Source: Anaerolineaceae bacterium (GTDB taxonomy: Bacteria > Chloroflexota > Anaerolineae > Anaerolineales > Anaerolineaceae). From it: a DNA stretch of 32,865 nucleotides. A program made the translations under genes and the position numbers. Below the pieces are notes generated by a model that did no database searches, was not told where the DNA came from, and saw only the letters and a program-made list of their open reading frames with translations. The stretch is taken from the NCBI GenBank assembly GCA_017417055.1, contig JAFPZX010000123.1, positions 1-32,865 on the forward strand, in the 5' to 3' direction. This document shows positions 6,516 through 25,642 of the stretch, one piece after another (the stretch's first letter is position 1; every line of letters begins with the position of its first letter).

Positions 6516-7616
6516 ATGTCAAAGCTAAAACAGTATCTGGATCCAAAATACACGAAAATATCAGTTTATGTAATCATAACCGCAATCATAACCTTTGTTT
6601 TATGCATTATATTGTCACTGTCAGGTGGCTTTTTCAAAAAATTCTTCAGCGTCATCGGACTGGTGCTGAAACCTATCATTGCGGGCGGCGTCATTGCCTA
6701 TCTGATAGAACCGCTGGTTCAATGGATTCAAAAGAAGCTCAAATTTTCCCGTCCTATCGCTGTTATCGGAACATTTGTGGTTATCGTTCTCCTGATCCTT
6801 GCCATGCTGGTTATGGCCGGATTGTTTTTAGGCAAGCAGATCAATGCAATCAATTTTAATGAAATCGGAAATTTGATTGGGTCTTTTTCAGACCAGCTGA
6901 AAGATATCGGAGAGCGTGTCACACAGTGGTTTGCCAGTCACAGTATTGATATCAAAGCCATTACCGGAGGTGTCGGCAATGTGGTTACCGGCATCACCGG
7001 AGCAGCTTCCGACATATTTTTTGCTTCAATCTTTGCGATATATTTTCTTCTCGATTCTGACAGAATCCAGAAGTATTGGGACCGGGTTCGGAAACTGTTT
7101 GTCAAACCACAGACACAGGCAAAAATTCACGAAATTCTTGTGGATGCCGACAAATGTTTTTCAGGTTATATCCGAGGACAATTCTTAGACGCGATTCTGG
7201 TCGGCGTTGTCACTTTCATTGCAATGACGATTTGTCAGGTACCCTATCCCTTCGTTATTGGGCTTTTGACCGGTGCGGGCAACCTGATCCCGTATGTCGG
7301 TCCGGTTATCGGTTTCGCCACGCTGCTGATTGTTTGTCTGATCGAAAATGCCTGGAGCAAACTGCTGATCGGAGGGATCATCCTCGCTGTCCTCCTGTTT
7401 GTGGACGGAAACATCATCAATCCCAAGCTCCTGAGCTCCAGCATTGAGATCCATCCGCTGCTGGTTTTTGCCGCAATGATCGCCGGTTCCGCCGTTGGCG
7501 GTCTGCTCGGAATGTTAGTTGCTGTACCGCTCGCTGCACTGCTGAAGATCCAATTCGACAAATTTATTGACAGGAAAGAAGCAGAGAAAAGGGCAGAAAG
7601 CAGGAAGAAACAATAA
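6516..7616 (+). CDS. AI-2E family transporter (PerM/YdiK-like)
   Basis: This 366-residue integral membrane protein has the AI-2E/PerM layout. A hydrophobic pair comes first (about residues 15-85), then a soluble or amphipathic stretch (about 105-150), and then several helices including the conserved segment LIPYVGPVIG near 263. The family is named for proposed autoinducer-2 export, but members also act as sodium/proton antiporters or general exporters, so the substrate is open. The ATG at 6516 is backed by AAAGGAG five bases upstream. The tail is strongly charged (KEAEKRAESRKK), as is usual for a cytoplasmic C-terminus. The gene appears monocistronic, with its own promoter in front and a convergent gene beyond. 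Confidence 0.85.
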   Translation: MSKLKQYLDPKYTKISVYVIITAIITFVLCIILSLSGGFFKKFFSVIGLVLKPIIAGGVIAYLIEPLVQWIQKKLKFSRPIAVIGTFVVIVLLILAMLVMAGLFLGKQINAINFNEIGNLIGSFSDQLKDIGERVTQWFASHSIDIKAITGGVGNVVTGITGAASDIFFASIFAIYFLLDSDRIQKYWDRVRKLFVKPQTQAKIHEILVDADKCFSGYIRGQFLDAILVGVVTFIAMTICQVPYPFVIGLLTGAGNLIPYVGPVIGFATLLIVCLIENAWSKLLIGGIILAVLLFVDGNIINPKLLSSSIEIHPLLVFAAMIAGSAVGGLLGMLVAVPLAALLKIQFDKFIDRKEAEKRAESRKKQ

Positions 7617-7671
7617 AAGCAACCAATTCCGGTACAGTTCAAATCGAAATAAGGCAGGTACAATGATTGTT

Positions 7672-7850
7672 TTCAGGCAATAGAAATAGGCAATCAGATT
7701 TAGGCAATAGGCAATTGTGAAAATCATTTCTCCGAAGCATAATTGCCAACATTTCCTAATACTTAATGCCTAATGCCTATTTCTATTGTCTATTGCCTAA
7801 TACCTAAAATCTGACACCTAATACCTAAAACCTGAAACCTATTGTTCTTT
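7672..7850. repeat. Degenerate heptamer array with inverted arms (AGGCAAT type)
   Basis: The left arm (about 7674-7716) is made of units such as AGGCAAT, AGGCAAT and CAGATTT. The right arm (about 7755-7848), read on the minus strand, is made of AGGTTTC, AGGTTTT, AGGTATT, AGGCAAT and AGGCATT. Most units are seven bases; one unit in each arm (AGAAAT) is six. Bases 7675-7693 and 7773-7791 are complementary at 17 of 19 positions. TAG occurs at nearly every unit junction. The minus-strand gene at 7839 ends inside the array: its TAG stop is part of a CAATAGG unit. The array fills the gap between convergent genes. Confidence 0.85.
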
Positions 7851-8396
7851 TTTCCTCTGTTTTATTTCTTTCAAAACCCTGACTGTCTTTTCATGACGGT
7901 CATGAACACGTTTTCTGATTCTTCCTCTTATGCGGTCTGGATGGTCCTCCGCTTTCTTGTCTTCAGATTCAGAATCGTCAGTTTTCATCTTTTTTTTTTC
8001 GGTTTGATCTGAGACTTTATCAAGCCTGTACGTTTTCCAAACTTGCGCATCAAATATATAAATATATTGAACCTCTTCCTTCATCATGATGGACAATGTA
8101 GGGAAAAAGCCATTCAATCCGCCGGAAATCACCGTATTTTTTCCATCGTCATATTTTACATACAATCCATTAGATAACCTTGTATAAGATCCGGAAATAA
8201 TTTTATTTTTATCATCAGCCGGGTCTTTAAATATACCAAGAATACTCTTATATGAGATCAGCTCCTCAACCATATCATCTGTAGTGAAATTCGTCCGCAG
8301 AATATCACCGATATTTTCAGGATCACCATTGATCCAACACCAGGAAGTAAAAAAACCGTTTTCAATACACCGTGCAATAATCGCTCTTGATGACAT
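7839..8396 (-). CDS. Hypothetical protein, GYPE-like N-terminal family with charged tail
   Basis: The 185-residue product has no signal peptide. Its first 55 residues (SSRAIIARC..., WCWINGDPENIG..., ILRTNFTTDDMVEELI) recall a family of small proteins common in phages, plasmids and clostridial genomes. Their typical opening is a TRS/SRS start, a YCHWDGYPE-type block, then LxxxYTxxxKVxxLI. The match is by eye and no function is established for that family. Residues about 130-185 are dominated by K, E, D and R and are probably disordered. The region is clearly more AT-rich than its neighbours, which would fit acquisition by transfer. The start at 8396 has AGAGAG about five bases upstream. The stop lies in the heptamer array. 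Confidence 0.7.
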   Translation of the reverse strand: MSSRAIIARCIENGFFTSWCWINGDPENIGDILRTNFTTDDMVEELISYKSILGIFKDPADDKNKIISGSYTRLSNGLYVKYDDGKNTVISGGLNGFFPTLSIMMKEEVQYIYIFDAQVWKTYRLDKVSDQTEKKKMKTDDSESEDKKAEDHPDRIRGRIRKRVHDRHEKTVRVLKEIKQRKKEQ

Positions 8397-8525
8397 GATG
8401 TTCTCTCTTTTCTTTTCTATATAGTTTTAACACCATAGTCTATTTTACCCTAAAATTTATCTTTTTACCATATTCAGAAAGTCACCTTCATTTTTTTGAA
8501 TTACGGCCAACAAAAATCATTCAGG

Positions 8526-8548
8526 TGATATAATTATTATAATTGAGG
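8526..8548 (+). promoter_or_regulatory. Promoter and ribosome site of the GDPD-like gene
   Basis: TGATATAAT at 8526-8534 is an extended -10, and a second TATAAT sits at 8538-8543. GAGG at 8545-8548 is nine bases before the ATG at 8558. This selects that ATG over the in-frame TTG at 8543, which lies inside the promoter. Confidence 0.6.
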
Positions 8549-8557
8549 CAAGTAAAG

Positions 8558-9406
8558 ATGAACAATCCGATGATAACAGCTCATTCCGGATGTGAAGGAA
8601 CCGGCATTGACACTATGGAATCCATCGAAAAAGCGCTGACTTTCAATGCGGATGCGGTTGAAATCGATATCCGAATGGATCCGTTCGGAGTGCTGCGAAT
8701 TTCTCACGACCCATTGTCTATTGAAGATTATTTCAAAAAGAATCCGCTCTCCGATGTGTTTGACCGAATCCTGCCGACTTCCATGATGATCAATTTTGAT
8801 ATTAAGGAACAAGCTGCTTTATACAAAACGATCAATGCCGCCCATGAGTTTGGTTTTCCAACGGAACGCCTGATTTTCACCGGATGCACAACGCCGGAAC
8901 TATTGATAAAAGATCCCGAACTTGCTCACAAAGCAAAGTTTTTCCTGAACCTTGAACGAGTTGTGAAATATGTAGTTTCCCATCGGAAAGGCGAATTCAG
9001 CCTCGATATATTTAACATTTTGATGGAAGACCCTTTTCTTCTCTTCATCGACAGGAAAAGCGCCATCATATCTGACAATTATCTTTCCAAAGCCTCAAGG
9101 ATACAGCAGAAACTTTACGAGATATCAAAAACACTAATGGGAAAAATTCTGGAAGATACCGTCCGCATCTATCAGGAAACACATGCAGCAGCGGCAAATC
9201 TCTCAAAGATCTTGCTGTGGACATCTTTTGATGACGAGCTGAAAGCCAATAATATACAGCTTTCTTTCTGGACAGTGAATGAAGCGGATTTTGTTCATCG
9301 ATGCCTTGAAATCGGAGCATACAATATTACCACCCGAAATATCCAATTAACCAGGCGCATCGTCTCTCAAAACAAGATGGCGTCTACTTCTGAACATCTC
9401 GCGTAA
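8558..9406 (+). CDS. Glycerophosphodiester phosphodiesterase family protein
   Basis: The 282-residue product has the GDPD TIM-barrel pattern. AHSG at residues 8-11 stands where the family has AHRG. EIDIR at 35-39 gives the metal-binding Glu and Asp, HDP at 50-52 the second catalytic His, and SFWTVNE near 234 the usual late strand. A closing GAYNITTRNI matches the usual end. GDPDs hydrolyse glycerophosphodiesters to glycerol-3-phosphate and an alcohol. The Arg of AHRG, which normally helps bind phosphate, is replaced by Ser, so activity or substrate may differ. No signal peptide is seen, so it should be cytoplasmic. It is followed by a structured intergenic region and a terminator. Confidence 0.8.
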   Translation: MNNPMITAHSGCEGTGIDTMESIEKALTFNADAVEIDIRMDPFGVLRISHDPLSIEDYFKKNPLSDVFDRILPTSMMINFDIKEQAALYKTINAAHEFGFPTERLIFTGCTTPELLIKDPELAHKAKFFLNLERVVKYVVSHRKGEFSLDIFNILMEDPFLLFIDRKSAIISDNYLSKASRIQQKLYEISKTLMGKILEDTVRIYQETHAAAANLSKILLWTSFDDELKANNIQLSFWTVNEADFVHRCLEIGAYNITTRNIQLTRRIVSQNKMASTSEHLA

Positions 9407-9436
9407 CAACCTGAAGCAAGGCTTGAAAATGCCTAA

Positions 9437-9514
9437 GGGAAACGATGAGTAATTACCGAGAAAGCGGGAGGACAGTTCTGCGCTTCGCGCAAAGCCGTCC
9501 CCGCACCTCATCCC
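9437..9514 (+). ncRNA. Strong nested hairpin, possible small RNA or REP-like element
   Basis: GATGAG (9444-9449) pairs with CTCATC (9507-9512), extended by GGG (9437-9439) with CCC (9512-9514) across a bulge. Inside, GCGG/CCGC, GGAC/GTCC and GCGC-TTC-GCGC stack into a second GC-rich hairpin. It sits between the GDPD-like gene and a terminator, so it could be a 3' UTR element, a processed small RNA or a repeat relic. No known RNA family was recognised. Confidence 0.4.
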
Positions 9515-9533
9515 TAACAGTAAAGCGTAAACG

Positions 9534-9567
9534 AAAACAGGCATGACTTGAGCCATGCCTGTTTTTT
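9534..9567 (+). terminator. Bidirectional Rho-independent terminator
   Basis: A perfect 12-bp stem (AAAACAGGCATG at 9534-9545, CATGCCTGTTTT at 9554-9565) with an 8-base loop is followed by a T run. The A-rich 5' side gives a T-rich tail on the other strand too. It lies between two convergent genes and can serve both. Confidence 0.9.
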
Positions 9568-9588
9568 ATTATTTGATTCCGAATCGGA

Positions 9589-11238
9589 TTATTTGACGGT
9601 AATGCGTCCCTGCGGTTCCTTGTAGGCGCTTAGATCGCCCTTAAGACTGGTAATGTAATTGACAACGACCTGGTAATCCATGATACCGGGATCCAAGACC
9701 ACGGGATCTTCCTGGAACATGGTGGTACCATCGCCGCCTTCTGCCAACAGGTAGTTGTGGGAAGCGACCAGGTATTCAGCGTTCGGGTCAATCGGAGTCC
9801 AATTGCCGTCTTTTTCAACTTCCACATCAACGACACGGCGCGGAGCGTCTTCGATGAAGCCGAAGAACATACCCTTTTCATCTTCGATAGCCGGAGATTC
9901 GACGGATGTGTCGATGGTATAGCGGAGACCGGCAACCTGGAGGAAGCCGCCGAGTTCACCGGTGGCATTGCCGTCAGAAGTCTTGTATTCAGCCTGGGTT
10001 TTGCGGGCTGTCCATTCAAGAGCATCAAGGACCTGCTGGCCGGTAGCTTTGACTGCGTAAAGCTGGTTGCCAAACGGATGGCAGGCTTTGATACCAGCAA
10101 AGGTCAGATCGCCGGCAGAGATGTTGGCGCGGATACCGCCGCCATTGGCGAAGGCAATATCAGCATTGGTAGCATGACGATACGCATCAGCAACGAGATC
10201 ACCGAGGTTGGTTTCGCGGGAACGGACCATGCGGATGCCATCTTCATCAGTGATCCACAAATCAACATTGGAAGAGGCCACGACTTCATTGATCATATCA
10301 TCATAATCAGCAGTAATCCCTGCTTCGATCAAATCAAAACCAACACTGCGCGGCAGTGAACCGTTGACGATGGTGGTGGTAATCAGGCCTTCTTCGGTGA
10401 TGGTCAGGAGACCAATGTACTGGAGTTTTGTACCGGTGGAAGCGAGCGGAATGAGGTCGCCGTCTTCATTCGGAACCATCATGGACGCGATCACACTGTG
10501 GGAGTGTCCATCCAGAACGGCATCAATACCGGTAGTATTTTCAATAACATCGACAGAGCGATAGGGTTCTGTATCTTCTTTCATGCCCAGATGGGAAAGA
10601 AGAATGACATAATCTGCGCCTTCCAGACGGGCGGAATCAACAGCATCCTGAATCATACCGTACATGATCTCGCCATTCATGCCATAACCGAAATCATAGA
10701 CATATTCTCCATCTTCCTGGAAATAGGACGGAGTAGAAGTCGCGATGCTCAGCGGGGTGGAAGCACCAACAAAAGCGACTTTGACGTCTTCGAATTCATG
10801 AATTACATAGGGCTTTACGGCTTTCAGTCTGTTGATCTTGTTACCGGTATAGGTGATGTTGGCACTGACATACTGGAAATCAGCCTTATCGATCAGCACT
10901 TCAAGCTGTTCCATGCCATAGTCGAATTCATGGTTGCCAAGAGTAGCATAATCGTAGCCGGCAGCATTCATGAAATCAATGATGTATTCACCCTTGGAAA
11001 CAGCACCGATCACATCACCCTGGATAGCGTCACCATTGTCGACAAGCAGCACATTCGGCGTGAGGGTCTCATAGAAATCCTTCAGCTCAGCCACAGCACT
11101 GTAGGTGAGGTTATCTTCATAACCGCAGTGTACATCGTTAGTGAAAAGGATTACGATATCTTCTGCATCCGCATAAACACCGCAGAAGGAGGCAAGCATA
11201 AGCACTGCCATGACAATACAGATCAAACTTTTCTTCAT
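9589..11238 (-). CDS. Secreted 5'-nucleotidase / UshA-family metallophosphoesterase
   Basis: The product has 549 residues. An N-terminal signal peptide (about 1-24, hydrophobic core ICIVMAVLMLASFCG, likely cut after VYADA) exports it. The metallophosphoesterase domain has NDVH at 34-37, DNGD at 67-70, GNHEFDYG at 101-108, a later LSHLG and DGHSHS, which supply the two-metal ligands. The 5'-nucleotidase C-terminal domain begins near residue 345 (DLVADAYRHAT, FANGGGIRA) and binds the nucleoside. Family members dephosphorylate nucleotides or UDP-sugars outside the membrane to scavenge phosphate and nucleosides. There is no LPXTG or obvious anchor, so it may be free or lipid-independent. GGAG stands ahead of the ATG, with an extended -10 at 11266-11274. 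Confidence 0.92.
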   Translation of the reverse strand: MKKSLICIVMAVLMLASFCGVYADAEDIVILFTNDVHCGYEDNLTYSAVAELKDFYETLTPNVLLVDNGDAIQGDVIGAVSKGEYIIDFMNAAGYDYATLGNHEFDYGMEQLEVLIDKADFQYVSANITYTGNKINRLKAVKPYVIHEFEDVKVAFVGASTPLSIATSTPSYFQEDGEYVYDFGYGMNGEIMYGMIQDAVDSARLEGADYVILLSHLGMKEDTEPYRSVDVIENTTGIDAVLDGHSHSVIASMMVPNEDGDLIPLASTGTKLQYIGLLTITEEGLITTTIVNGSLPRSVGFDLIEAGITADYDDMINEVVASSNVDLWITDEDGIRMVRSRETNLGDLVADAYRHATNADIAFANGGGIRANISAGDLTFAGIKACHPFGNQLYAVKATGQQVLDALEWTARKTQAEYKTSDGNATGELGGFLQVAGLRYTIDTSVESPAIEDEKGMFFGFIEDAPRRVVDVEVEKDGNWTPIDPNAEYLVASHNYLLAEGGDGTTMFQEDPVVLDPGIMDYQVVVNYITSLKGDLSAYKEPQGRITVK

Positions 11239-11265
11239 AAATACTCCTTTCGGTTTTGTTGATTA

Positions 11266-11274
11266 ATTATAACA
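11266..11274 (-). promoter_or_regulatory. Extended -10 promoter (TGTTATAAT) of the 5'-nucleotidase gene
   Basis: On the minus strand TGTTATAAT stands 27 bases before the start codon. It is followed by the ribosome site AAAGGAG, and there is no clear -35 box at standard spacing. Confidence 0.55.
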
Positions 11275-11359
11275 AAAAAATCATAAATGGAAAAGTTTAA
11301 TTTCAAGAATTTTGAATTGAAATTATTTAAAAACGGAAACATTGCGCATAACGACATAT

Positions 11360-11391
11360 TTTTACCTTATCCGCATATTTTAAGGTAAAAT
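11360..11391 (+). promoter_or_regulatory. Palindromic operator candidate over the epimerase promoter
   Basis: TTTTACCTTA (11360-11369) and TAAGGTAAAA (11381-11390) are perfect inverted halves around an 11-base spacer. They cover a plausible -35 (TTTACC, 11361-11366) and -10 (TAAAAT, 11386-11391) for the plus-strand gene at 11427. A dimeric repressor binding here would block the promoter. The regulator is unknown. Confidence 0.45.
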
Positions 11392-11426
11392 AAACTCACT
11401 TTTGATAACTATATCGGAGGAAAGTC

Positions 11427-12389
11427 ATGCGGGTATTGATCACTGGAGCAGCCGGATTTCTCGGATCTCACTTATGCGAATTATTTCTGAGTAAAGGCCA
11501 TCAGGTTATCGGGATGGACAATTTTATCACCGGACATGCCAGAAACCTGGCACATCTGGCCGGCAATCCGGATTTCACCTTTATCCGGCATGATGTTTCC
11601 GATTTTATTTTTGTTCCCGGACATGTTGACGCGGTACTGCACTTCGCCTCACCGGCCAGTCCCAATCCGGCTTCGCCTTATGGATACACGAACCTGCCGA
11701 TCCAGACCATGAAAGCCGGCGCTTTGGGAACCCATAACGCTTTAGGTGTGGCACGTGCAAACAAAGCCCGCTTTTTATTAGCCTCCACCAGTGAAATTTA
11801 CGGTGACCCGCAGGTTCATCCGCAGCGGGAAGACTACTGGGGACATGTGGACCCAAACGGAGAGCGCTCTGTTTACGATGAAGCGAAACGCTTTGCCGAA
11901 GCATTGACCATGGCCTATCACCGTTTCCATGGCGTAGAAACGCGGATCGTTCGCATTTTCAACACCTACGGTCCCAGGATGGATCTCAATGACGGACGTG
12001 TAGTGCCCAACTTTTTGAAGCAGGCTATTGAGAAAAAACCGCTGACCGTTTACGGCGACGGACAGCAGACACGTTCTTTTTGCTACGTCAGTGACCTGAT
12101 CGACGGCATATACCGGCTGCTGCTTTCCGATGAACACAACCCGGTGAATATTGGGAACCCGACGGAAAATACGGTGATGGAATTAGCAGAAGAAATCAAC
12201 CGCATTACAGAAAATCCGGCAGGAATCATCGTCAAAAAGGAGCTCCGGCTCGGACATGATCCGCAGCGAAGACGTCCTGATATCACCCGGGCAAAAACGA
12301 TTCTCGGATGGGAACCGAAAGTCAGCCTTGCGGAAGGAATTCAAAAGACGATCCCTTATTTCAAAGAAAGAATGTCCCAGGATGATTGA
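11427..12389 (+). CDS. NAD-dependent SDR, UDP-glucuronate decarboxylase-like (UDP-xylose synthase)
   Basis: This 320-residue extended short-chain dehydrogenase has the NAD motif GAAGFLGS at 7-14. The catalytic set is Thr/Ser and Glu in STSEIYGDP (120-128) and YDEAK (Tyr150, Lys154). The HFASPASP block and the [14 protein letters not shown] stretch match UDP-glucuronate decarboxylases better than 4-epimerases or dehydratases. That enzyme turns UDP-glucuronate into UDP-xylose through a 4-keto intermediate. GGAGG precedes the ATG. The gene overlaps the GtrA gene by 8 bases. With the glycosyltransferases nearby, this suggests sugar supply for a surface glycan. The exact product sugar is not certain. 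Confidence 0.82.
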
Positions 12390-12840
12390 TTTCATCAAAA
12401 ACCCGGCAGAACGGACCCGTTTTCTAAAATTCTGTGTTGTCGGTGTAATTGGTTTCGTTGTTGACTTCGGAATCATGAACCTGCTGCTGCACTTCACCGG
12501 CAACGCGCGGCTGGCTTCCACCATCTCATTCATCGCCGCGGTCATCAGCAACTTTATCTGGAACCGTTATTGGACTTATCCGGATTCCAGGAAAAAGCCA
12601 CTGATGCAGCAGCTTGGTCAATTTTTTTTGATCAATGTTATCGGACTCGGGATCCGCTATCTGCTGTTTTTGACCATCGACAAACCGATTACCGCACTTG
12701 CGGAACGGATCCTGCCGGCAGATTTTTTCATCAGTCCAAGCGTCGTCGGGCATAACATCACCATGGTCATCGCGGTCTTTATCGTGATGATGTGGAACTT
12801 CTTCGCCAACCGTCTTTGGACGTATAATGATGTGAAGTAG
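12382..12840 (+). CDS. GtrA family membrane protein
   Basis: This 152-residue protein has four hydrophobic helices (about 14-36, 42-62, 77-99 and 113-135). Two [10 protein letters not shown] / [10 protein letters not shown]-type blocks end helices 2 and 4, the hallmark of GtrA. GtrA proteins are thought to move or present polyprenyl-phosphate-linked sugars across the membrane for O-antigen or wall modification. The ATG at 12382 overlaps the upstream SDR stop by 8 bases, so the two genes are coupled. A longer upstream reading is possible but would extend the protein with residues translated from the SDR gene and lose the normal GtrA start. A polyprenyl-phosphate GT2, the usual partner, is nearby on the other strand. 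Confidence 0.88.
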
Positions 12841-12856
12841 CACTGAAAGGACAATT

Positions 12857-13432
12857 ATGGCAAATCCAAGGATCATTGCAGGAAGCAGAAAAGGAATGCG
12901 GCTGAATGCCGTCCCGGGAGACAGTACCCGGCCGGTTACAGACCGTGTCAAAGAGGCTGTATTTAACATTATCGGAGCAGACATTGTGGAAGCCTCGATG
13001 TTTGACCTTTTCGGCGGTACCGGATCCATAGGCCTGGAAGCACTGAGCCGCGGTGCGTCTTACGTTCGCTTCAGTGACGCAAACCGCAGCGCTTATAACA
13101 CACTGGTCTCTAACATCAAGCTAACCCGCTTCGAGAAACAAGCGAAGGCCTATTTCGGAGACGTTTTCAACATTCTGCGCGGGATCCCGGACCGGGAATT
13201 TGAGTATATCTATGTCGCACCGCCTCAATATAAGGAGATGTGGAAGCACATCATGGAAGTTCTGGATAAAAACGACGGCTGGCTGACAGATGACGGATGG
13301 ATCATTGTCCAGATCCACCCGATTGAACGGGAAGATCTGGAACTGGAATGTTATGAATTATTCGATGAGCGGAAATACGGCTCCACCACACTCCTGTTCT
13401 ATTGCAGAAAAGAAGTAGTTGGTAGTTGGTAG
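12857..13432 (+). CDS. rsmD: 16S rRNA (guanine(966)-N2)-methyltransferase RsmD
   Basis: The 191-residue product matches RsmD. It opens with RIIAGSRKG, followed by the TRPVTDRVKEAVFNII block (24-39). The SAM-binding motif I is DLFGGTGSIGLEAL (50-63) and SDAN at 73-76 ends strand 2. RsmD methylates G966 of 16S rRNA. Motif IV, usually DPPY, reads APPQ at 121-124; the acidic residue that normally contacts the target amino group is missing (see findings). The start has GAAAGGAC upstream. The last residues (VVGSW) and the stop are encoded by the first heptamers of the downstream repeat array, so the original C-terminus may have been altered. Confidence 0.88.
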   Translation: MANPRIIAGSRKGMRLNAVPGDSTRPVTDRVKEAVFNIIGADIVEASMFDLFGGTGSIGLEALSRGASYVRFSDANRSAYNTLVSNIKLTRFEKQAKAYFGDVFNILRGIPDREFEYIYVAPPQYKEMWKHIMEVLDKNDGWLTDDGWIIVQIHPIEREDLELECYELFDERKYGSTTLLFYCRKEVVGSW

Positions 13433-13634
13433 TTAGTAGTCAGTGACCAGTTGTCAGTGTCCAGTAGTCAGAGGACAATATCAAATATCCGGTGATCATT
13501 TGTTAATAGAAAAGGCAGTGTCCAGTGAAAAGTTGATAATTGTTCAGAGTATAATTCCAACTCTCCAAATTAAATCTTAACCGCACTCTTCACTCTGCAC
13601 ACTTCACACTCAAAACACTCCTAACTCCTAACTA
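13414..13634. repeat. Degenerate heptamer array with inverted arms (GTAGTTG / TTAGGAG type)
   Basis: The plus-strand arm from 13414 reads in sevens: GTAGTTG, GTAGTTG, GTAGTTA, GTAGTCA, GTGACCA, GTTGTCA, GTGTCCA, GTAGTCA, GAGGACA. From the other end, the minus strand reads TTAGGAG, TTAGGAG, TGTTTTG, AGTGTGA, AGTGTGC, AGAGTGA, AGAGTGC. About 100 bases between the arms hold a few more similar words (near 13514-13550) and no gene. The stop codons of rsmD (+) and of the methyltransferase (-) lie at or in the arms. Confidence 0.85.
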
Positions 13635-14264
13635 ATCGTACTCCTTACGGACGAGGATCGTGAAGTCCCAGATTTTGTAGTCGTGAAGCAGAGCAACATT
13701 ACGGGAAAAATGGCGCCGGCAATAATCAAAAATCCGGCAGGGATCGGCATAGTATAAATCAGGCCGTTCAGCCATGCGGTCCGCATCGGAATAGGAAGTC
13801 AGAAAATTCACAGAAAACCCACGGGACGTTTTTTCATTAAATATCTTCAGTGAATCAATGACATAAGACGTCCATTCCTCATAATCCGCATCCATTTTGA
13901 TGTTAAAAACCCCCGAACAGACAAGGTAATCACACACAGGGATCTCTTCCAGCGTTGAATGGAATGTGACCGCCGGATCCAACTCATATTTTTTTCGTCC
14001 GGCAGCGAGAGATTTTTCAACGATATCATACCCGTAATAATGAGAAAAGTTCAGACCTTCCCGCCGAAACCATTCCGCCATGGCTCCATACCCACAGCCA
14101 AAATCAAGCACCGTAAACGGATTCTGCGGAAGAATCACTTTCGCGATCTGCTCGAACCGGGTTTCCTGCGCGTACGCGGAATTCCAATCCACACCTGTGG
14201 CATCTTCCCCATGCTGTTCAAAACGCATCTGGAAATAATCTTTGATGGGAGTCAAATCGTTCAT
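13632..14264 (-). CDS. Class I SAM-dependent methyltransferase
   Basis: This 210-residue protein has SAM motif I VLDFGCGYG at 52-60 and a following YGYDIVEKSL strand-loop that supplies the acidic residue for the ribose. The target cannot be named from sequence. The gene is last in a minus-strand operon after a GT-C-like membrane protein and a GT2. Its ATG overlaps the GT2 stop as ATGA, so it most likely modifies a glycan or its lipid-linked precursor. GGAG stands about eight bases before the start. The TAG stop opens the heptamer array. Confidence 0.82.
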   Translation of the reverse strand: MNDLTPIKDYFQMRFEQHGEDATGVDWNSAYAQETRFEQIAKVILPQNPFTVLDFGCGYGAMAEWFRREGLNFSHYYGYDIVEKSLAAGRKKYELDPAVTFHSTLEEIPVCDYLVCSGVFNIKMDADYEEWTSYVIDSLKIFNEKTSRGFSVNFLTSYSDADRMAERPDLYYADPCRIFDYCRRHFSRNVALLHDYKIWDFTILVRKEYD

Positions 14265-15223
14265 TTATCAGTCTCCTTTTCATAATTATCAGCAGTTTCC
14301 CGGATCACATAGGGCGGACGGTCGCTTGAGCGGTCATAGACACGGGCAAGATATTCGCCGATAATTCCAAGCGTAAACAGCTGCACCCCGGCAAAAATCG
14401 ATATGATCGAAGCCAAAAAGGGAAATCCCGGCGTTGAACCTTGAGAAAACTTAACGATCAGAACATAAATCAATATCGCTAATCCGAATAACATAAAGAT
14501 AAAGCCCAGCATACTCGCGAACCGCAGCGGAGCGGTGCTGTACCCCGTCAGGATCAAAAGACTGGCTTTCACCAGTTTCGCAAAAGAGTAATTGGATTCA
14601 CCGATTTCGCGCTTGTCTTCTTCCACATAAACATGGCTGAAGTTTTTTGTTCCCCAGGCCAGCAGAGGGTCGATATAAACCTCCGGACTGCGATAATTCG
14701 CGAAAGCATTCCGCAAATCTGTACGGAACACACGGAATGCCCCGATTTCACGGATCGGAATTCCCATGATTTTTCCAAGAACGATCTTCGTCATCTTCGA
14801 CCCAAGATTACGCCACCAGGAATGGGGCATCTTTTTCGGGACCGCATAAACGACGTCATATCCTTTTTCATATTCGTTTAACAACAGCGGCAGCTGTTCC
14901 GGTGGGTGCTGAAGGTCATCATCCATCGTGATGCAGATCTCATAACGTGCTGCCCGGATTCCGCATAAAGTTGCATTATGCTGACCGTAATTTCTGGCAA
15001 GATGAATGACACGGACTGTTTCCGGATTGGCTGACTGTAAAGATTTGATTACATTCCAGCTGTTATCGGGGCTGCAGTCATCCACAAGAATAATTTCATA
15101 GCAGTCAAAAAGGTCCGGCAAAACTTTCAAAAGTCTTTCCGTCAGCTGGGGGATCGTATCTTCCCCATTATAAACAGGGATAATCACGCTTGCGTTAGGT
15201 TTACAATCTTTTTTATCCAACAT
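14261..15223 (-). CDS. Family 2 glycosyltransferase (polyprenyl-phosphate sugar synthase, DPM1/GtrB-like)
   Basis: The 320-residue product has a GT-A domain with VIIPVYNGE at 13-21, VDDCSPDNSW at 47-56, LARNYGQHNA and the metal-binding MDDDLQHP at 100-107. Two membrane helices follow (about 235-255 and 268-290). This layout matches GtrB/DPM-type enzymes that move a sugar from a nucleotide carrier to undecaprenyl phosphate on the inner membrane face. I chose the ATG at 15223 because GGGAG sits eight bases ahead. An in-frame ATG 33 bases upstream has no ribosome site and would overlap the preceding gene by 32 bases. Together with GtrA across the strand it could form a flip-and-transfer pathway. 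Confidence 0.88.
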   Translation of the reverse strand: MLDKKDCKPNASVIIPVYNGEDTIPQLTERLLKVLPDLFDCYEIILVDDCSPDNSWNVIKSLQSANPETVRVIHLARNYGQHNATLCGIRAARYEICITMDDDLQHPPEQLPLLLNEYEKGYDVVYAVPKKMPHSWWRNLGSKMTKIVLGKIMGIPIREIGAFRVFRTDLRNAFANYRSPEVYIDPLLAWGTKNFSHVYVEEDKREIGESNYSFAKLVKASLLILTGYSTAPLRFASMLGFIFMLFGLAILIYVLIVKFSQGSTPGFPFLASIISIFAGVQLFTLGIIGEYLARVYDRSSDRPPYVIRETADNYEKETDK

Positions 15224-15224
15224 A

Positions 15225-17306
15225 TTAATACTCCCTGGACATTGAACATCCAACATTATTCATAGCTGTAATCAGAGGAAGAATTATTTCAGGATCCTCC
15301 GGTTGATGGTTCCCAACCCATCGATGAATATAGCCGCACAGCACCTGATCCAATCCTTTCTCTTCAGCATGAACCCGCTCGAAAAGATCAAAAGCTTTTT
15401 CCCATTGGTCCAGGTTGATATAAGCCTCAGCAAAAATAAAGTACTCAGAAGCTTCTCCCGCCTTCATTGTATCCAACACTTCATCACCAATAGCCGCGAT
15501 TGTCTCCCAATCTTCAGTCTGCCGGGCAAGGTCAGCTTTTTCAAAATAGTAACACCAGTTCTTTTCAATCGGTATATTAAAGACGTCTGTAAAGATAAAA
15601 GTCGGCGCTGTGCCATTCGGGTTGATCCGCTCTTTCGGCTTGGAAAGATCCATAAAATAAGAATACGTTTCCGGAAAGATCGTCAGCAGCTCGTGCTGTT
15701 CTGTTTCAAGAACACGCAGGCAGCCGGGCGGCGAATAATGATAGGCTACGATCTGATCATTCGGTGCCCAGAAAAGGGATCCCCGAAAATCAAAATATAC
15801 ATCTTTACTCGCTTCCAATTCGTCAATTGAACCGAATCTTGAAGAAAAATGCATCACACTGTAAGGCAATTCATTATCTTCCGGTTCCGGTTTCAGCGCC
15901 AGATTAACCAGGCCTGTTAAAGAATTATCGGATTCATATTGAAACGGACTGTCATCTGTCAGGAGGATCGTATGTTTTTCCAATTCCGGGATTCTTGTCA
16001 CAAGCTGGGATGCAAAATCCAATTGCATCGCCCAGTCTTTCCGATAACTGTTGGCATTCAGAATGTTGCCGCCAATTGCCATAGCGGTAAGAATCGAAAA
16101 TACAATGGTCTTCTGCCACTGCGTTCTCAGAAAAAAAGATATCAACCCGACCATAAAAATTGAGCTGCCGAACATAAAGGCAACCAGAAACCGGTCGTAA
16201 GGATAATACAAATGGATTGGCAGTGTTGTGACCCAATAAGGCAGCCCGGGACAGATCACCATAAACAAACCAAGTCCAATTGCCACCAGGCACCAGATCC
16301 AATAAGCTTTTTTCTCTTCTTTGTTTTCCTTTTGCCGGGAATCATCTGATTTAAAGAAATGACCGATAAACAAAGCCGCCATCAAACTGATCGTCACCGG
16401 GATCCAGAACAATTTTCCCGCCTCAACTTCAAAGTCCACATGGTTCGGAAACCGAACGAATTCGGTCCAGGCGCCCCATGTCGCCGTATAGGCATCTTCC
16501 ACAATCCGAATAATCAGATTCGCAATGGCTTTGATCGGATTGGCAGCCATCTGATCCAGTAAAACCGGTTTATAACTTGGGAATTGAAAGATAAAAACCC
16601 GCCAGAACATAAAAACGCCGATCACACCGATATAAGGCAGCCATTCCCGGATGATGCGGAGAATCTTTTTCCAAAAAAACAGATCCCGAAAACCGGCATC
16701 ACGAGCCAAAAAAATCCAGATAATAAGGCCGCGCGCAATTTCGAGACCGGTGTAATATTCCGTAGATATCGTACAAAAGGTGAATAAGAATACAGAGGGA
16801 ACCGTCCACAGGATCCACCCTTTTTTACTCCCGCTTTTAATTGCTTTCAGCATCATGCCGTAGGACAAAATGTAGGCTAAAAGCATAATGAAAGCGTTCA
16901 TCCAAATGTAAACAATCGGCATTTGTTTGAAACCGGGATAGACCGCAAGCAGCAGACTGATCCAGAATACTTCTCGTTTCCGTTCCGGCCATAATTGACG
17001 GATCATCCACCAGAAGGCAAATGTCACTGTCCAACGGAAAATTACAGTAAGGATCTGCCATGCTAACGGATTGTTTCCTAAATGAGCTGTGAGCTGATAC
17101 AAATAACCGAGAAATGGACGATCGGATTCAAAAGCAGTCGCAAATCCCTCCGCCCCTTTGGTAACTTTGAACCATAACATCGGCCAATCGTCCCAATAAA
17201 AACCCAACTGGCTCACCAATGGGATATACGCAATTATTGTAAATAACAATAAAATGAAGGGAACCGATTTTTCTGTAAAATAAAAAGCTTTTCTTTTCTC
17301 TTTCAT
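15225..17306 (-). CDS. Polytopic membrane protein, GT-C glycosyltransferase-like with C-terminal TPR-like part
   Basis: The 693-residue product has about ten or more membrane helices in its first 420 residues. A WDDW acidic motif lies in the first outside loop (near residue 38), followed by DRPFLGYLY, typical of GT-C enzymes that take sugars from polyprenyl-phosphate donors. Residues about 430-580 are a soluble extracytoplasmic region. About 585-690 has helical pairs such as ADLARQTEDW and AEAYINLDQWEKAFDLF that look like TPR repeats. It is first in the operon with the GT2 and methyltransferase, ending one base before the GT2 start. No strong ribosome site precedes the ATG at 17306, so the start is less certain. 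The glycan target is unknown. Confidence 0.75.
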   Translation of the reverse strand: MKEKRKAFYFTEKSVPFILLLFTIIAYIPLVSQLGFYWDDWPMLWFKVTKGAEGFATAFESDRPFLGYLYQLTAHLGNNPLAWQILTVIFRWTVTFAFWWMIRQLWPERKREVFWISLLLAVYPGFKQMPIVYIWMNAFIMLLAYILSYGMMLKAIKSGSKKGWILWTVPSVFLFTFCTISTEYYTGLEIARGLIIWIFLARDAGFRDLFFWKKILRIIREWLPYIGVIGVFMFWRVFIFQFPSYKPVLLDQMAANPIKAIANLIIRIVEDAYTATWGAWTEFVRFPNHVDFEVEAGKLFWIPVTISLMAALFIGHFFKSDDSRQKENKEEKKAYWIWCLVAIGLGLFMVICPGLPYWVTTLPIHLYYPYDRFLVAFMFGSSIFMVGLISFFLRTQWQKTIVFSILTAMAIGGNILNANSYRKDWAMQLDFASQLVTRIPELEKHTILLTDDSPFQYESDNSLTGLVNLALKPEPEDNELPYSVMHFSSRFGSIDELEASKDVYFDFRGSLFWAPNDQIVAYHYSPPGCLRVLETEQHELLTIFPETYSYFMDLSKPKERINPNGTAPTFIFTDVFNIPIEKNWCYYFEKADLARQTEDWETIAAIGDEVLDTMKAGEASEYFIFAEAYINLDQWEKAFDLFERVHAEEKGLDQVLCGYIHRWVGNHQPEDPEIILPLITAMNNVGCSMSREY

Positions 17307-18813: not shown

Positions 18814-18890
18814 AGTATTTTCTCCTCCTTTCCGCCTTTCAGGTTTTTTTATTCGATAATTGTTTTCTTCTTTATTTACTTTTAGAATTT

Positions 18891-21497: not shown

Positions 21498-21971
21498 ATG
21501 AAAATCAGAACCGCACAGGAAAAAGATATCGATAAAATTTTAGAGCTCCTTTCACAGGTATTGGAAGTGCATGCAGCCATTCGTCCGGACTTATTTGTCC
21601 ATGGAACAACAAAGTATTCTCATGACGAACTAAAAGCAATGTTCAACGATGAAAACAGGAGAATCTATGTGGCGGTTGATGACAAAGACGAAGTTCTCGG
21701 TTACGCTTTCTGCGAGCTGCGCAGTCAGAAAAAAAGAGACAACCTGGTTCCCTTTACATCGATTTATATTCATGATCTCTGTGTAGATGAGGCAATCCGC
21801 GGGCAGCATATTGGGAAATCATTGTTCGAACACGTCCGCAAAGAAGCTTCCGCTATGGGATGTTACGAGATCTCACTCAATGTTTGGGAAGGCAACGACA
21901 CAGCCCGAAGATTCTACGACAGCATGGGTTTCAAACCAAAATCCACCACGATGGAATACATTTTGGAGTAA
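21498..21971 (+). CDS. GNAT family N-acetyltransferase
   Basis: The 157-residue product has a complete GNAT fold: an opening MKIRTAQEKDIDKILELL, the strand-4 segment IYIHDLCVDEAIRGQHIGKSL with the acetyl-CoA pyrophosphate loop RGQHIG, and the late NVWEGNDTARRFYDSMGF block. The acceptor cannot be told; protein N-termini, amines and antibiotics are all possible. GAGG lies seven bases before the ATG. The TAA stop (21969-21971) is inside the perfect arm of the heptamer repeat, so the repeat defines the end of this gene. Confidence 0.88.
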   Translation: MKIRTAQEKDIDKILELLSQVLEVHAAIRPDLFVHGTTKYSHDELKAMFNDENRRIYVAVDDKDEVLGYAFCELRSQKKRDNLVPFTSIYIHDLCVDEAIRGQHIGKSLFEHVRKEASAMGCYEISLNVWEGNDTARRFYDSMGFKPKSTTMEYILE

Positions 21972-22044
21972 GAAGTAAGAAGTAAGAAGTAAGTAGTAAG
22001 TAGTAAGTAGTGATGTAATTACTTCTTACTTCTTACTTCTTACT
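21967..22044. repeat. Heptamer array (AGTAAGA) with a perfect 24-bp inverted repeat
   Basis: AGTAAGA is repeated three times and then drifts to AGTAAGT (21967-22010). Bases 21967-21990 and 22021-22044 are exact reverse complements (24 of 24) around a 30-base loop. The stop codons of the GNAT gene (21969-21971) and of smc (22040-22042) both lie in the paired arms. It should act as a strong bidirectional hairpin, although it is AT-rich and has no classic T tail. Confidence 0.95.
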
Positions 22045-25000
22045 TCAGTATGTCCCCTTTGATCTCGTCCAGCTTCAGGGAAACGACCTGAGAGGTTGAA
22101 TCGGCGGACATGGTAATGCCATAGATCACGTTCGAAGCTTCCACTGTATTTCGGTTATGTGTGATCACGAGGAACTGTGTATCTTTACTCAGTTCTTTCA
22201 GTAAATCGCAAAACCGGCCCACATTTGCTTCATCCAGCGCCGCGTCAACCTCATCCATCACACAAAACGGAGTCGGACTGACCCGCAGCAGGGAAAATAT
22301 CAGAGCCACAGATGTAAGGCTGCGCTCGCCGCCGGAAAGCAGTGACAATTCCTGTTCGCGGTGTCCGGGGAGTTTCGCTTCGATTTCGATTCCGGATGAA
22401 TTCACATCATTTGGATCCGTCAGCGCCAGGCGCGCACTTCCTCCGCCGAACAAACGGACAAACATCTGCTTGAATTCCGCCTGGACTTTATCAAAAGTAG
22501 CCAGAAAGGCATTTTCCATCATGCGGTCCAATTCAGCAATTACCTGACGCAGATCGGCATCAGCCTTTTTCAGGTCAGCCATTTGGGTTTTCAAAAACTC
22601 ATAACGCTCTGAGGATTCAGCAAATTCCGTGATAGATTCCGGATTCACAGCACCCATACGCCGAAGATGATTTTTCAGCCGCTGCATCTGCTCTTCAAGG
22701 TTCTCACTCAGGATCTCAACCTGCGGCAGTTCGGAAACCATCTCACCCAAAGGCAAAGTTTTTTGGCCCTCGATTTTTTCGTCATACATAAAATTAACCA
22801 TACCGAGATCGTCTTCGATACGTTTTTTGAGTGCCTCCAGCCGGTCATCCTGCCGGGTGACTTCAACCTGAGCCTGAGCCAGCATCCTTTCCGCTGAAAC
22901 AACGAGCTGTTGCTTTTCCTGAAAAGCTTTTTGATCGATATTCAGCTGTTCTTCGCCCCGTTTCAGTTCTGCTTCCACCGGCGTTGTTTTTTCGATGATT
23001 TCCGCAGAAAATTGATTTTCTTCGTTGATTTTTTCTTTCAGTTTCGCGATCTGCTCATCCAACGCTTTTGAACTTTGTTCTCCGCTCACGATCCGTTCTG
23101 CCAGTTGATTTTTCTTTTTCTGATTTTTCTCAGCCTCTGCTTTATTCTCCCGAATACGGGTTTCAGCTTCGGAAATGGATTTTTTCAGAACCGCGCAGTT
23201 CACATTCCAGTGCTGAACCTGGTCCTGAAGCTCATTGAGCTGAATTTTATTGATCTGATCCTGCATTCCGCGGATTTCAGCGCGAAAACCTTCTCTGCCT
23301 TTTTCCAACTCTGTTATTTGCGCAGCAATTTCTTCAATTTGTTGATTGTTTCCTTCAATTTGCGTAACAGCATCATTCAGACGCTGCCGCTGAAAAGCAG
23401 CTGCCTGGGTTTGTTTTTCCTTTTCCACTGCCAGCTGGTTCAGTTTTCGCTGAAGCTCCAACCCGGAAGACTGTAATTTTGTACGTTCAGCCTGTCGAGA
23501 CTTTACCGCTTCACGCAATTGACGAATTGTAGTTTCAGCATCAGAAATCTGTTTTGCCAACGCAGATGACTGTTCTTCTATTTTTTGCTTCTCTTCTGTA
23601 AGTTCGCGAATCTCACGCGTCCGGGAAAGCAGCTTCTGCCGGCCTTCACTGCCCGAAACAACAGACCCGTCACTGCGGAACAAGTCCCCTTCCTTTGTTA
23701 CGATCCGCTCACCGGGTTTGAGAAGATTCCGCAAAGTCATCGCTTTTTCCCGTGATTCCGCGAGCCATGTTCCGGCAAGCACACGCTCCATGACCGGACG
23801 TACTTCTTCTGTACAATTCAATACAGAAAGCAGCGGTTTTGTTCCTTCATACGCATCGAAAGGAACTGTGGATTTCTCCCTGCTTTCCGCTGCATCCGGC
23901 AGCAAAACAGCCCTGCCGCTCTGAGCCTGATTCAGCAGATCCATTGCCCGGGTCCATTCATCCATATTCATCAATACAGCATCCAGTTCATCGCCAAGCG
24001 CAGCCGCTGCAGCTGTTTCATACTCGGGTGGAACATCCAACATACTTTGGAATGATTGGATTTGGCTTTGAATCAGCCCTTTTTCCGCGCTTTGCGCTAT
24101 ATATTGAGCCCCGCGGTTCATTCCGCTGAAATGTTTTTCTGCATCAACCAGAACATCCAGCCTTGCACTGACTTTAGAAAGAGCGGAATCGACTTTATTC
24201 TTTTCACTGCGGGCATCCCGAAGTTCGGACTCTTGGCCGCCCAACTGCTTTTCCATATCCGTAATTTCATTGTTCAAAGCAGCCAGTTTTTCTTCATTTT
24301 GTTGTTGAGCATCGTAAAACTTTTGATTGTCCCGCTGGAAAGTACGCAGTCCGGTTTCCAGGCGTTCCAGTGTGATCCGCAAACCGTTCAGGGATTCTTC
24401 CAGTTTCGAAGTCCGTTCATCCAGGTCATCATGTCTCGCCTTCAGCCGGATCAGTTTTGATTCCAGTTTATCCTGTTCATCCCGCTTTGCCCGCAGCGCC
24501 GCACGCATCTCATTCAGCTCTGCCATGCGTTTATTCAGCTCTGCCGTATAAGAAGCCTTTTGCTCTGCAGCTTCTTTTTCATCCGACTGTAACGAAACAA
24601 GCGATGATTCCAGTTCTTTTCCGCGTTCTTCAATGAGCTTCTGTTCTTCATCTAAAAGGGCAGATTCATCCTGCCGGGAGCGAACCTGAGCTAAAGCCGC
24701 GTTTTTTCGTTCATCAAGTATGGCATTTTCCCGTGTCAGTTGTTCAATTCGTTTATGAATCTCCGCAGCCTGATTATGCAATTCAGAAATTTTCAAACGA
24801 AGCTCACGAATATCATCACGTTTTTTACGCAGCCCTTCGTCCAGCATTTCAAATTGCGCGCGGACCTGGTTTGTCCGCTTTTCCTGCTGCGTAAATCGTT
24901 CCCGGACAACAAGCAGGTCCTGCTGCGTATGGTGCCAGTGATATCCATACCACTCACGAAGTAAAAGTTTCAGTTCATCCGTCACATGCGCATATTCCGC

Positions 25001-25642
25001 AGCCCGCTTTGCCTGACGTTCCAATGAATGAACACGCGGCTCCAACTCGCTCAAAATATCATTGACACGTTCCAGGTTTCTGGCAGTCTCTTTGAGCCGG
25101 ATCAATGCCTCCTCGCGTCGGCTGCGGAACAGACCAATTCCGGCTGCTTCCTCGAAAAAGCGTCTGCGGTCTTCAGGAGATGCGGAAAGAGCATTATCGA
25201 TCAGGCCCTGTCCGATGATCGTATAAGTTCGCTCGGAAAGTCCGGACTGGGCTAACAATTCGTTGACATCTTTCAGACGAACCTTCTGTCCATTGATCAA
25301 ATATTCGTTCTGTCCGTCCCGATACGCCCGGCGTGTGATCGCGACCTCCACGTAATCCATAGGAAGCCAATGATCAGTATTGTCAAAGGTGATCGTCGCA
25401 GAAGCCATGGACGCACGGGCTTTTTTGTCAGACCCGGAAAAAATCATATCCATGGTTTTTCGTCCGCGTAAAACCGTATAGGATTGTTCTCCCAGCACCC
25501 AGCGTATCGCGTCGGAGATATTTGATTTTCCAGAACCGTTCGGACCAACGATAGCGGTAATTGGCAGCGGGAACTCAAAAAAGACCTTGTTCGCAAAGGT
25601 CTTATATCCCTGCAGCTCGATAGATTTCATCCTCGGAGGCAC
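22040..25642 (-). CDS. smc: Chromosome segregation protein SMC
   Basis: The 1200-residue protein is a full-length SMC: an N-terminal ATPase half with Walker A VGPNGSGKSN (about 31-40), then a long coiled coil to about 500. The hinge (about 500-680) includes GLIQSQIQSF and LGDELDAVLMN. A second coiled coil follows, then the C-terminal half with signature LLSGGERSLT (about 1100) and Walker B FCVMDEVDAALDE (about 1130-1142). It organises and helps separate chromosomes with ScpA and ScpB. I chose the GTG at 25642, which has AGGTGA before it; the ATG four codons later has GAGG far too close. It is 26 bases after rnc in the same operon. Its last codon and stop are in the heptamer arm. Confidence 0.97.
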   Translation of the reverse strand: MPPRMKSIELQGYKTFANKVFFEFPLPITAIVGPNGSGKSNISDAIRWVLGEQSYTVLRGRKTMDMIFSGSDKKARASMASATITFDNTDHWLPMDYVEVAITRRAYRDGQNEYLINGQKVRLKDVNELLAQSGLSERTYTIIGQGLIDNALSASPEDRRRFFEEAAGIGLFRSRREEALIRLKETARNLERVNDILSELEPRVHSLERQAKRAAEYAHVTDELKLLLREWYGYHWHHTQQDLLVVRERFTQQEKRTNQVRAQFEMLDEGLRKKRDDIRELRLKISELHNQAAEIHKRIEQLTRENAILDERKNAALAQVRSRQDESALLDEEQKLIEERGKELESSLVSLQSDEKEAAEQKASYTAELNKRMAELNEMRAALRAKRDEQDKLESKLIRLKARHDDLDERTSKLEESLNGLRITLERLETGLRTFQRDNQKFYDAQQQNEEKLAALNNEITDMEKQLGGQESELRDARSEKNKVDSALSKVSARLDVLVDAEKHFSGMNRGAQYIAQSAEKGLIQSQIQSFQSMLDVPPEYETAAAAALGDELDAVLMNMDEWTRAMDLLNQAQSGRAVLLPDAAESREKSTVPFDAYEGTKPLLSVLNCTEEVRPVMERVLAGTWLAESREKAMTLRNLLKPGERIVTKEGDLFRSDGSVVSGSEGRQKLLSRTREIRELTEEKQKIEEQSSALAKQISDAETTIRQLREAVKSRQAERTKLQSSGLELQRKLNQLAVEKEKQTQAAAFQRQRLNDAVTQIEGNNQQIEEIAAQITELEKGREGFRAEIRGMQDQINKIQLNELQDQVQHWNVNCAVLKKSISEAETRIRENKAEAEKNQKKKNQLAERIVSGEQSSKALDEQIAKLKEKINEENQFSAEIIEKTTPVEAELKRGEEQLNIDQKAFQEKQQLVVSAERMLAQAQVEVTRQDDRLEALKKRIEDDLGMVNFMYDEKIEGQKTLPLGEMVSELPQVEILSENLEEQMQRLKNHLRRMGAVNPESITEFAESSERYEFLKTQMADLKKADADLRQVIAELDRMMENAFLATFDKVQAEFKQMFVRLFGGGSARLALTDPNDVNSSGIEIEAKLPGHREQELSLLSGGERSLTSVALIFSLLRVSPTPFCVMDEVDAALDEANVGRFCDLLKELSKDTQFLVITHNRNTVEASNVIYGITMSADSTSQVVSLKLDEIKGDILK

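Follow-up and report, generated by a model that had tools for sequence, protein, structure and literature searches.

The closest described counterparts of the arrays considered here are the heptamers of Xanthomonas and Nostoc (Rehm et al. 2015, PMC4692102), with the G-quadruplex words GGGAATC and GGGGA(C/T)T. As far as the accessible parts of that paper go, they share with the present arrays the period of 7, a mostly intergenic location, sense-strand placement over a stop codon or within 50 bp of it, antisense placement upstream of starts and scarcity between divergent genes; inverted pairs are common in Xanthomonas and few in Nostoc. In contrast to those fixed words, the arrays here carry many drifting words, and the words found in the window, that is, the entire stretch of 32,865 nucleotides analyzed (AGGCAAT, TAGTTGG, AGTAAGA and their variants), contain no GGG. 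In the accessible text of MacGregor 2015 (PMC4679880), the TAACTGA repeats likewise form tandem heptamer arrays, with mixed words in some cyanobacteria, and some close relatives lack them at the corresponding site, but the word is fixed and, in the main species, lies mostly just upstream of starts; the same source cites Mrazek's proposal that 7 is a polymerase footprint. The REP/BIME/REPIN elements associated with RAYT resemble the arrays in their 3'-end seat, inverted dimers and preference for co-directional and convergent genes, and REPs supply TAG stops to their neighbors (Di Nocera et al. 2013, PMC3733652, in the part available); these elements, however, consist of tagged palindromic units accompanied by a Y1 transposase, whereas here the units are tandem heptamers and the called Y1 genes are not flanked by arrays.

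A different kind of counterpart is the intervening sequence of the Coxiella 23S rRNA (Warrier et al. 2016, PMC4990558), which spans 428 nt and contains an S23 ORF and a 28-bp terminal stem. Similarly to the loci described below, the S23 ORF lies between terminal inverted repeats, with tandem heptamers (GACAGAT) just upstream; unlike those loci, the element is part of an rRNA, from which RNase III excises it. The accessible portion of that article calls the intervening sequence selfish, cites the proposal of ORF mobility by Ralph and McClelland (1993), describes the function of S23 and of the 23S intervening sequences as unclear after 25 years, and contains no tie to intergenic heptamer arrays or stop codons. 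The S23 family (PF05635) is compared with Avd in PMC10053308, to judge from the available part. 'Expanding the catalog of cas genes with metagenomes' (PMC3936711) lists 23S_rRNA_IVP as a CRISPR-Cas-associated function, with 18 such genes in cas loci; its accessible text uses none of the terms 'inverted repeat', 'heptamer' and 'tandem', whereas the S23 genes in plasmid cas loci reported here have repeat arms.

The first-pass annotation of this DNA took the array form for undescribed, but its geometry, with stop overlap and inverted pairs, is already known from Rehm et al. What is new here is the link of heptamer arrays to S23, which comes from DNA outside the window. No such link was found in the available parts of Rehm et al., and a literature search that left most subscription journals outside its range turned up no paper tying intergenic heptamer arrays to S23.

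Heptamer arrays in the window and among its relatives

A lag scan of the window confirmed the three arrays of period 7 that had been reported, each with its G-rich arm first and its C-rich arm second, in inverted orientation (Table 1). At scores of 16-18, the window contains four lag-7 segments, and among the other lags from 3 to 15 just two, both at lag 14. As also reported, five of the six flanking stop codons are located at or inside an array, the exception being that of the AI-2E family transporter gene. The two arms carry a common word in array 1 (match 6.59 of 7) and matched words in array 3 (6.53), and their match is weak in array 2 (5.21). The arrays are intergenic, not inside 23S rRNA; window positions 7000-23000 gave no Rfam match at the gathering score, and no S23 motif was found in the six frames of the window.

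Table 1. Arms of the three arrays and their flanking genes, in window coordinates
Feature	Coordinates	Strand	Remarks
AI-2E family transporter gene	6516..7616	+	TAA 7614-7616, 58 nt before array 1
Array 1, G-rich arm	7675..7717	+	AGGCAAT/AGAAATA/AGATTTA units
Array 1, C-rich arm	7757..7841	-	AGGTTTC, AGGTATT, AGGCAAT on - strand; extends to TAG 7839-7841 (-)
ORF, 185 aa	7839..8396	-	No Pfam match; TAG stop at array 1 end
RsmD-like methyltransferase (PF03602) gene	12857..13432	+	
Array 2, G-rich arm	13414..13472	+	TAGTTGG, TAGTTAG, TAGTCAG; gives rsmD stop TAG 13430-13432
Array 2, C-rich arm	13584..13634	-	AGTTAGG, AGTGTGA, AGAGTGA on - strand; holds methyltransferase gene stop TAG 13632-13634 (-)
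Methyltransferase-domain gene	13632..14264	-	
GNAT acetyltransferase gene	21498..21971	+	
Array 3, G-rich arm	21965..22010	+	AGTAAGA/AGTAAGT; holds GNAT gene stop TAA 21969-21971
Array 3, C-rich arm	22018..22046	-	GAAGTAA units on - strand; holds smc stop TAA 22040-22042
smc gene	22040..25642	-	

In 832,865 bases of the 4.4-Mb genome to which the window belongs (G000; the window and 40 further stretches), we detected 98 lag-7 segments at score 16, with 0-2 segments at each of lags 4-6, 8-11 and 13, seven at lag 12 and 62 at the harmonic lag 14; Markov copies (400 kb) gave none at lags 6-8. The score thresholds vary among the analyses, from 10 to 16. Similarity between units is 0.763 for neighbors and drops to 0.455 for units eight apart. 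The words differ between sites, as the first-pass annotation held, and also along a single array; the constancy of the period that it proposed does not extend to relatives, where octamers occur.

The arrays belong to the 3' ends of genes and avoid divergent promoters. Within 433 kb of G000, the 44 array sites include 32 between co-directional genes (207 intergenic regions), six between convergent genes (40) and one between divergent genes (34), along with five that are not clearly intergenic. The 130 arms in the 832,865 bases are distributed similarly, with 93 in co-directional, 16 in convergent and four in divergent regions, eight within genes and nine with one flank lacking a gene; intergenic regions of at least 20 nt number 289 (74.4 kb), 72 (20.8 kb) and 68 (28.4 kb) for the three orientations, respectively. 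Given these counts, with arrays common between co-directional and rare between divergent genes, the arrays are not a feature of convergent genes: the comparison by which the first-pass annotation proposed to check this restriction shows an array frequency just as high at co-directional pairs. Genes were predicted with a simple caller that missed S23 genes in stretches of G000, G006 and G012 (apparent 'intergenic' regions of 482-521 nt).

Among 113 arms, 86 are nearest to a 3' end and 27 to a 5' end. On the outgoing strand, the 3'-end arms are G-rich in 69 cases, C-rich in 14 and neither in three; the respective numbers for the 5'-end arms are 22, four and one. Where free room of 30 nt or more is available (75 arms), the arm starts no more than 7 nt from a stop codon in 54 cases; uniform placement predicts 9.9. 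The coincidence of array ends with stop codons, first seen in the window, thus holds genome-wide, with 55 of the 86 3'-end arms starting no later than the last base of the stop. Neighboring arms less than 300 nt apart in G000 (41 pairs) are arranged as G-C in 29 cases, G-G in six, C-C in five and C-G in one, and the arms of the sole C-G pair (L168) flank a called gene boundary. Across 76 sites of at least 50 bp in G000 and its congeners, 40 switch from G to C, none from C to G, and 36 show no clear switch; this order of the gene-less arrays was tested within the genus, and 74 loci from other Anaerolineae yielded four neighboring lag-7 arm pairs (GG 2, GC 1, CC 1). At gene-less sites (29 pairs), own arms match only weakly (5.25 versus 5.02), in contrast to those of S23 cassettes. 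Array matches are also found less than about 600 bp from the starts of G000 contigs C30, C32, C74, C148, C160 and C173, as if the assembly breaks there.

The SMC protein of G000 is 88% identical to that of the MAG RUG13159 (G013) and about 80% identical to those of three more MAGs, one of which is labeled Flexilinea sp.; the host MAG itself is a Flexilinea-like Chloroflexota. The RUG MAGs are presumably from rumen, and the record of G005 names goat jejunum. Arrays are present in the genus members G000, G005, G006, G012 and G013, which are each other's closest relatives by SMC identity, and none were found in 100 kb of Flexilinea flocculi (G009) or in samples of 24-80 kb each from G001, G002, G004, G008 and G010 (G003, G007 and G011, with 3-7 kb sampled, are left out of this comparison).

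Orthologous sites are about 100 bp longer where an array is present. Among 59 pairwise comparisons of orthologous intergenic regions (28 from G000, against four congeners), arrays are present in both genomes in 14, in G000 only in 16, in the relative only in six and in neither in 23, with median length differences (G000 minus relative) of 16.5, 109.5, 92.5 and -1, respectively, where the value of 92.5 is no guide to added length because three of the six comparisons involve one long array-free region of G000. The words at a given site differ between congeners; at L178, three different array words follow an apparently conserved intrinsic terminator in G000, G006 and G013. At the smc end, G013 has an AT-rich spacer and no array in place of array 3, with CTGAAGTAAGAAATA corresponding to CTGAAGTAAGAAGTAAG in G000. 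Further short stretches that match G005, G006 or G013 many times were noticed at L178:9413-9539, L178:18685-18812, L193:14213-14375 and L193:14823-14930.

Other Anaerolineae harbor octamer arrays (GTAAACAG, GTAGACAG, GTCTGATA and others; L079, L088, L096, L106, L114, L116, L120 and L137), and one array in L120 shifts its period from 7 to 8. In 10 of the 74 loci from other Anaerolineae (L072, L074, L079, L091, L096, L110, L113, L119, L127 and L131), a heptamer array immediately precedes smc, in some cases with the word AAATCGT.

S23 genes between inverted arms

At the orthologous site L193, three of five species carry, between the two arms, an additional ORF that encodes an S23 protein. It was identified by PF05635 in the genome search and as TIGR02436 ('four helix bundle protein'), with a weak, below-cutoff match to Avd; structures of relatives have been solved (2gsc, X. 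campestris XCC0516, and 2rld). Across 41 genomes, PF05635 gave 118 matches, distributed over 25 of them, and G000 contains five S23 genes in its 4.4 Mb. We examined the flanks of 70 of these 118 matches from the 25 genomes (30 loci from the search and 40 fetched) for lag-7 and lag-8 arrays within 220 nt and found arrays on both sides of 43 S23 genes, on one side of 17 and on neither side of 10. In the S23 sense, the 43 two-sided loci are arranged as G-then-C in 29 cases and as C-then-G in none (CC 4, G0 3, C0 2, 00 2, GG 2, 0C 1).

The two arms of an S23 gene closely resemble each other. Their match is 6.03 of 7, compared to 4.19 for arms paired across different loci, and in 28 of the 43 loci no other arm matches better than the own partner. 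As a control, 1,002 called genes from nine genomes, a set that happens to lack the S23 genes missed by the caller, include 21 with two-sided arrays and none with matched arms (at least 6 of 7). Of 28 S23 genes from the five array-rich members of the genus, 20 are two-sided, 15 of them with matched arms. The upstream arm usually starts at the stop codon of the preceding co-directional gene, and in 17 of 20 S23 loci of the genus it is located within 14 nt of that stop, although these loci include orthologous sites, so that the counts are not all independent. Within ortholog groups, the match between the two arms of one element (6.49; 13 elements) exceeds that between equivalent arms of sister species (5.34; 10 pairs). 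Three of these 10 pairs retain almost the same word, and both arms have changed in most of the others. The dN/dS ratio of S23 is 0.35, 0.12 and 0.08 in three of 11 pairs, dS being saturated in the remaining ones.

Across 23 genomes, the number of S23 genes correlates with array density (Spearman 0.70, kinship ignored): arrays were found in none of the eight genomes without S23 (420 kb), in one of five with 1-4 S23 genes and in eight of 10 with at least five. G020 and G023 have seven and six S23 genes, respectively, and no lag-7 arms in the 40 and 60 kb sampled, so the presence of S23 is not in itself enough to fill a genome with arrays. Furthermore, given that the array-rich members of the genus are closest kin, the co-occurrence of S23 and arrays in the genus may represent a single event.

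Plasmid and viral S23 loci and sites without the cassette

A protein search of plasmids identified S23 in 32 records, mostly cyanobacterial. Of the 22 of these plasmid S23 loci that were examined, scanned together with the viral ones at lags 6-9, 17 have arrays on both sides (10 matched), four on one side and one (L372) on neither, and the latter shows low-complexity inverted arms by eye. Among 15 viral contigs with S23, arrays are found on both sides in six (five matched), on one side in six and on neither in three. Thus, 15 of the 23 two-sided plasmid and viral loci have matched arms and eight have unmatched ones; the control genes are those of the nine genomes above, and the counts here include near-duplicate loci (L365/L366, L381/L382, L390-L392/L400, L394/L395 and L393/L396). 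The hosts include Azospirillum (L380, matched) and Gemmatirosa (L377, two-sided octamers, unmatched). A search of named phage genomes with a single S23 protein gave no match.

The cassette occurs between nrdB and nrdA (L364), cas6 and cas4 (L368, L370), and cas10 and cmr3 (L373). Arms are present on both sides of S23 in the cas loci L368 and L370, and in L373 on one side by score and on both by eye. Because S23 in cas and cmr operons has repeat arms, its association with CRISPR-Cas may be hitchhiking; more generally, wherever an S23 gene lies inside an operon (nrd, cas, cmr, tra), it may have hitchhiked there rather than being a partner of that system. As in the genus, the upstream arm is typically adjacent to a stop codon, within 14 nt in 12 of the 15 plasmid loci with a detected arm (17 examined).

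Loci from Aulosira (L376), Nostoc (L378) and Trichormus/Scytonema (L381/L382) have 411-427 nt in common at 78-82% identity. The limits of this homology fall at the arms, 32-49 nt ahead of S23 and 12-14 nt beyond it, and blastn detected no further DNA common to these loci. The best delimited cassette is about 0.42 kb long.

Several sites were found both with and without the cassette. At site C, the empty loci L407 and L408 read ...TCTAG-ATT-ATG or ...TCTAG-GTT-ATG between two genes, and the filled loci L378 and L406 read ...TCTAA-ATCAGGAGTCAG...S23...GATTCTA-GTTATG or similar; from this comparison of empty and filled sequences, the site C cassette starts at the upstream stop codon. At site B, L403 and L405 lack the cassette, L367 and L402 carry it about 6 nt past the stop, and L404 has inverted GGGAAC/GTTCCC arms around a 260-nt gap too short for S23. 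L404 is thus a gene-less copy, the only one seen at a filled site. At site A, an arm abuts the nrdA stop in L364, and L401 lacks the cassette. Taken alone, such pairs are compatible with both insertion and loss, of which we infer insertion; no instance of movement was observed in the species of the window. GATTCTA is present on both sides at site C, which hints at a target-site duplication, but we do not claim one, as the right copy may equally be an arm unit.

Gene-less arrays and their possible origins

In a full cassette, an S23 gene would be preceded by an arm of tandem heptamers or octamers, whose sense strand is usually G-rich, and followed by an inverted arm with the same word. The arrays in the window share with the cassettes the seat, the G-then-C order, the unit length and the kind of word, and on these grounds we consider them to be, probably, gene-less members of a small mobile S23 cassette family, the common geometry reflecting, under this reading, a common element. 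They would have descended from cassettes by loss of S23 or would have been mobilized in trans; the arms would then have been remodeled by 7-nt slippage and local copying, yielding the drifting words, with selection keeping arrays out of coding and promoter DNA. By analogy with the kindred Avd, a DGR protein, and with the 23S rRNA intervening sequences, S23 would, on the likeliest reading, act by binding the hairpin-forming nucleic acid of the arms. Against the gene-less-member reading, the genome contains about 10 array sites per 100 kb and only five S23 genes. These numbers, along with the poor matching of arms at most gene-less sites, argue against a recent common origin of each array.

A broader proposition, to which we assign slightly less than an even chance, is that the stop-seated arrays, the scattered S23 genes and the S23-containing intervening sequences of 23S rRNA form one family of mobile elements, with paired complementary arms of tandem heptamers or octamers, a stop codon or an expendable rRNA helix as the target, S23 as the only protein and the gene-less arrays as non-autonomous copies. 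If true, this would give one account both of the dominance of heptamers among long bacterial repeats and of the nature of S23 and the 23S intervening sequences; a mobile-element reading with the stop codon as target makes both puzzles testable.

The alternative that fares best is that the arrays are simple-sequence repeats generated by 7-nt replication slippage, the period reflecting the polymerase footprint as Mrazek proposed, with the S23 genes being passengers that landed in them. The dominance of lag 7 and the turnover of words between congeners at one site fit this scenario, as does the drop of unit similarity with distance, which is expected of local copying; array 3 itself may have grown from the smc end. 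Slippage leaves unexplained, however, the matched arms of S23 genes with none in the control set, the G-then-C order (40 sites to none) and the stop seat, as well as the presence of the cassette in several contexts with the homology ending at the arms. We regard it as unlikely.

Selection for RNA elements, in which the G and C arms would pair to form bidirectional terminators or 3'-end protectors, appears considerably less probable still. In its favor, terminator-like hairpins are found at two of 74 gene ends in array-bearing intergenic regions, compared to 52 of 320 in array-free ones; array 3 folds at -42.6 kcal/mol (z -8.6), array 1 has z -5.0, and the rsmD site of G012, by eye, has an intrinsic terminator in place of the G000 array. 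However, array 2 has z of just -1.6, the complementarity of own arms is not clearly higher than that of swapped arms (30 sites, p 0.067), the L178 arrays follow what appears to be a conserved intrinsic terminator, and none of the 26 terminator-like sites (stem and U-run) found in positions 7000-23000 is at any of the three arrays. A fold-back at the arm junction was also considered and rejected: the mean stem at 39 unique G-to-C switch points is 5.0, versus 4.5 for swapped halves, but 253 array-free intergenic centers give 5.2.

REP/BIME-like elements moved by a RAYT-type Y1 transposase are a very improbable source of the arrays, even though REPs have the same seat and orientation (PMC3733652, in its accessible part) and Y1_Tnp genes are present in all five array-rich genus members (2-7 each) and in none of G004, G009 and G010. 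No array lies within 350 nt on either side of any of the 14 called Y1 genes (six more loci have no gene call), G017, G020 and G023 have Y1 genes and no lag-7 arms in the samples, and the units are degenerate heptamers rather than tagged palindromes. The Y1_Tnp (PF01797) family seen in L241-L260 consists of proteins of about 230-256 aa, with several divergent copies per array-bearing genome. A reverse transcriptase was rejected as the maker of arrays, RVT_1 being without a match in the array-bearing G006 and G013.

The original proposal of a stop cassette, with period 7 kept to stop all frames at the ends of convergent genes, retains hardly any probability given the equal abundance of arrays between co-directional genes and the stop content of the arms. 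All three frames are indeed stopped within 30 nt at 26% of the 68 gene ends in contact with an array, compared to 7% of 320 array-free ends. However, when the seven columns of each array were permuted, preserving the period and composition, the first 21 nt of the 70 3'-end G arms stopped 1.80 frames as observed and 1.86 as permuted; stops in all frames are not confirmed as a kept property. As for the orientation bias predicted for stop triplets, frames are not enriched in these arms, and single triplets are slightly in excess (0.1086 versus 0.0995, p 0.024). The 16 3'-end C arms exceed the null more clearly, in triplets (0.0915 versus 0.0489) and in frames (1.50 versus 0.98, p 0.008), but words in the C orientation are rich in TAA and TGA and show an equal excess in the reverse reading direction and next to start codons. 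The stops apparently arise incidentally from words of the TAAG, TTAG and TGAG kind, with selection not supported. The claim that arrays supply stops nevertheless holds in some cases: as read from the sequences, the tails of RsmD differ among four species, CRKEVVGSW in G000, CRKEA in G013, CRKELEV in G006 and CRKELDSEQ in G012, and an array can therefore provide the stop codon of the adjoining gene.
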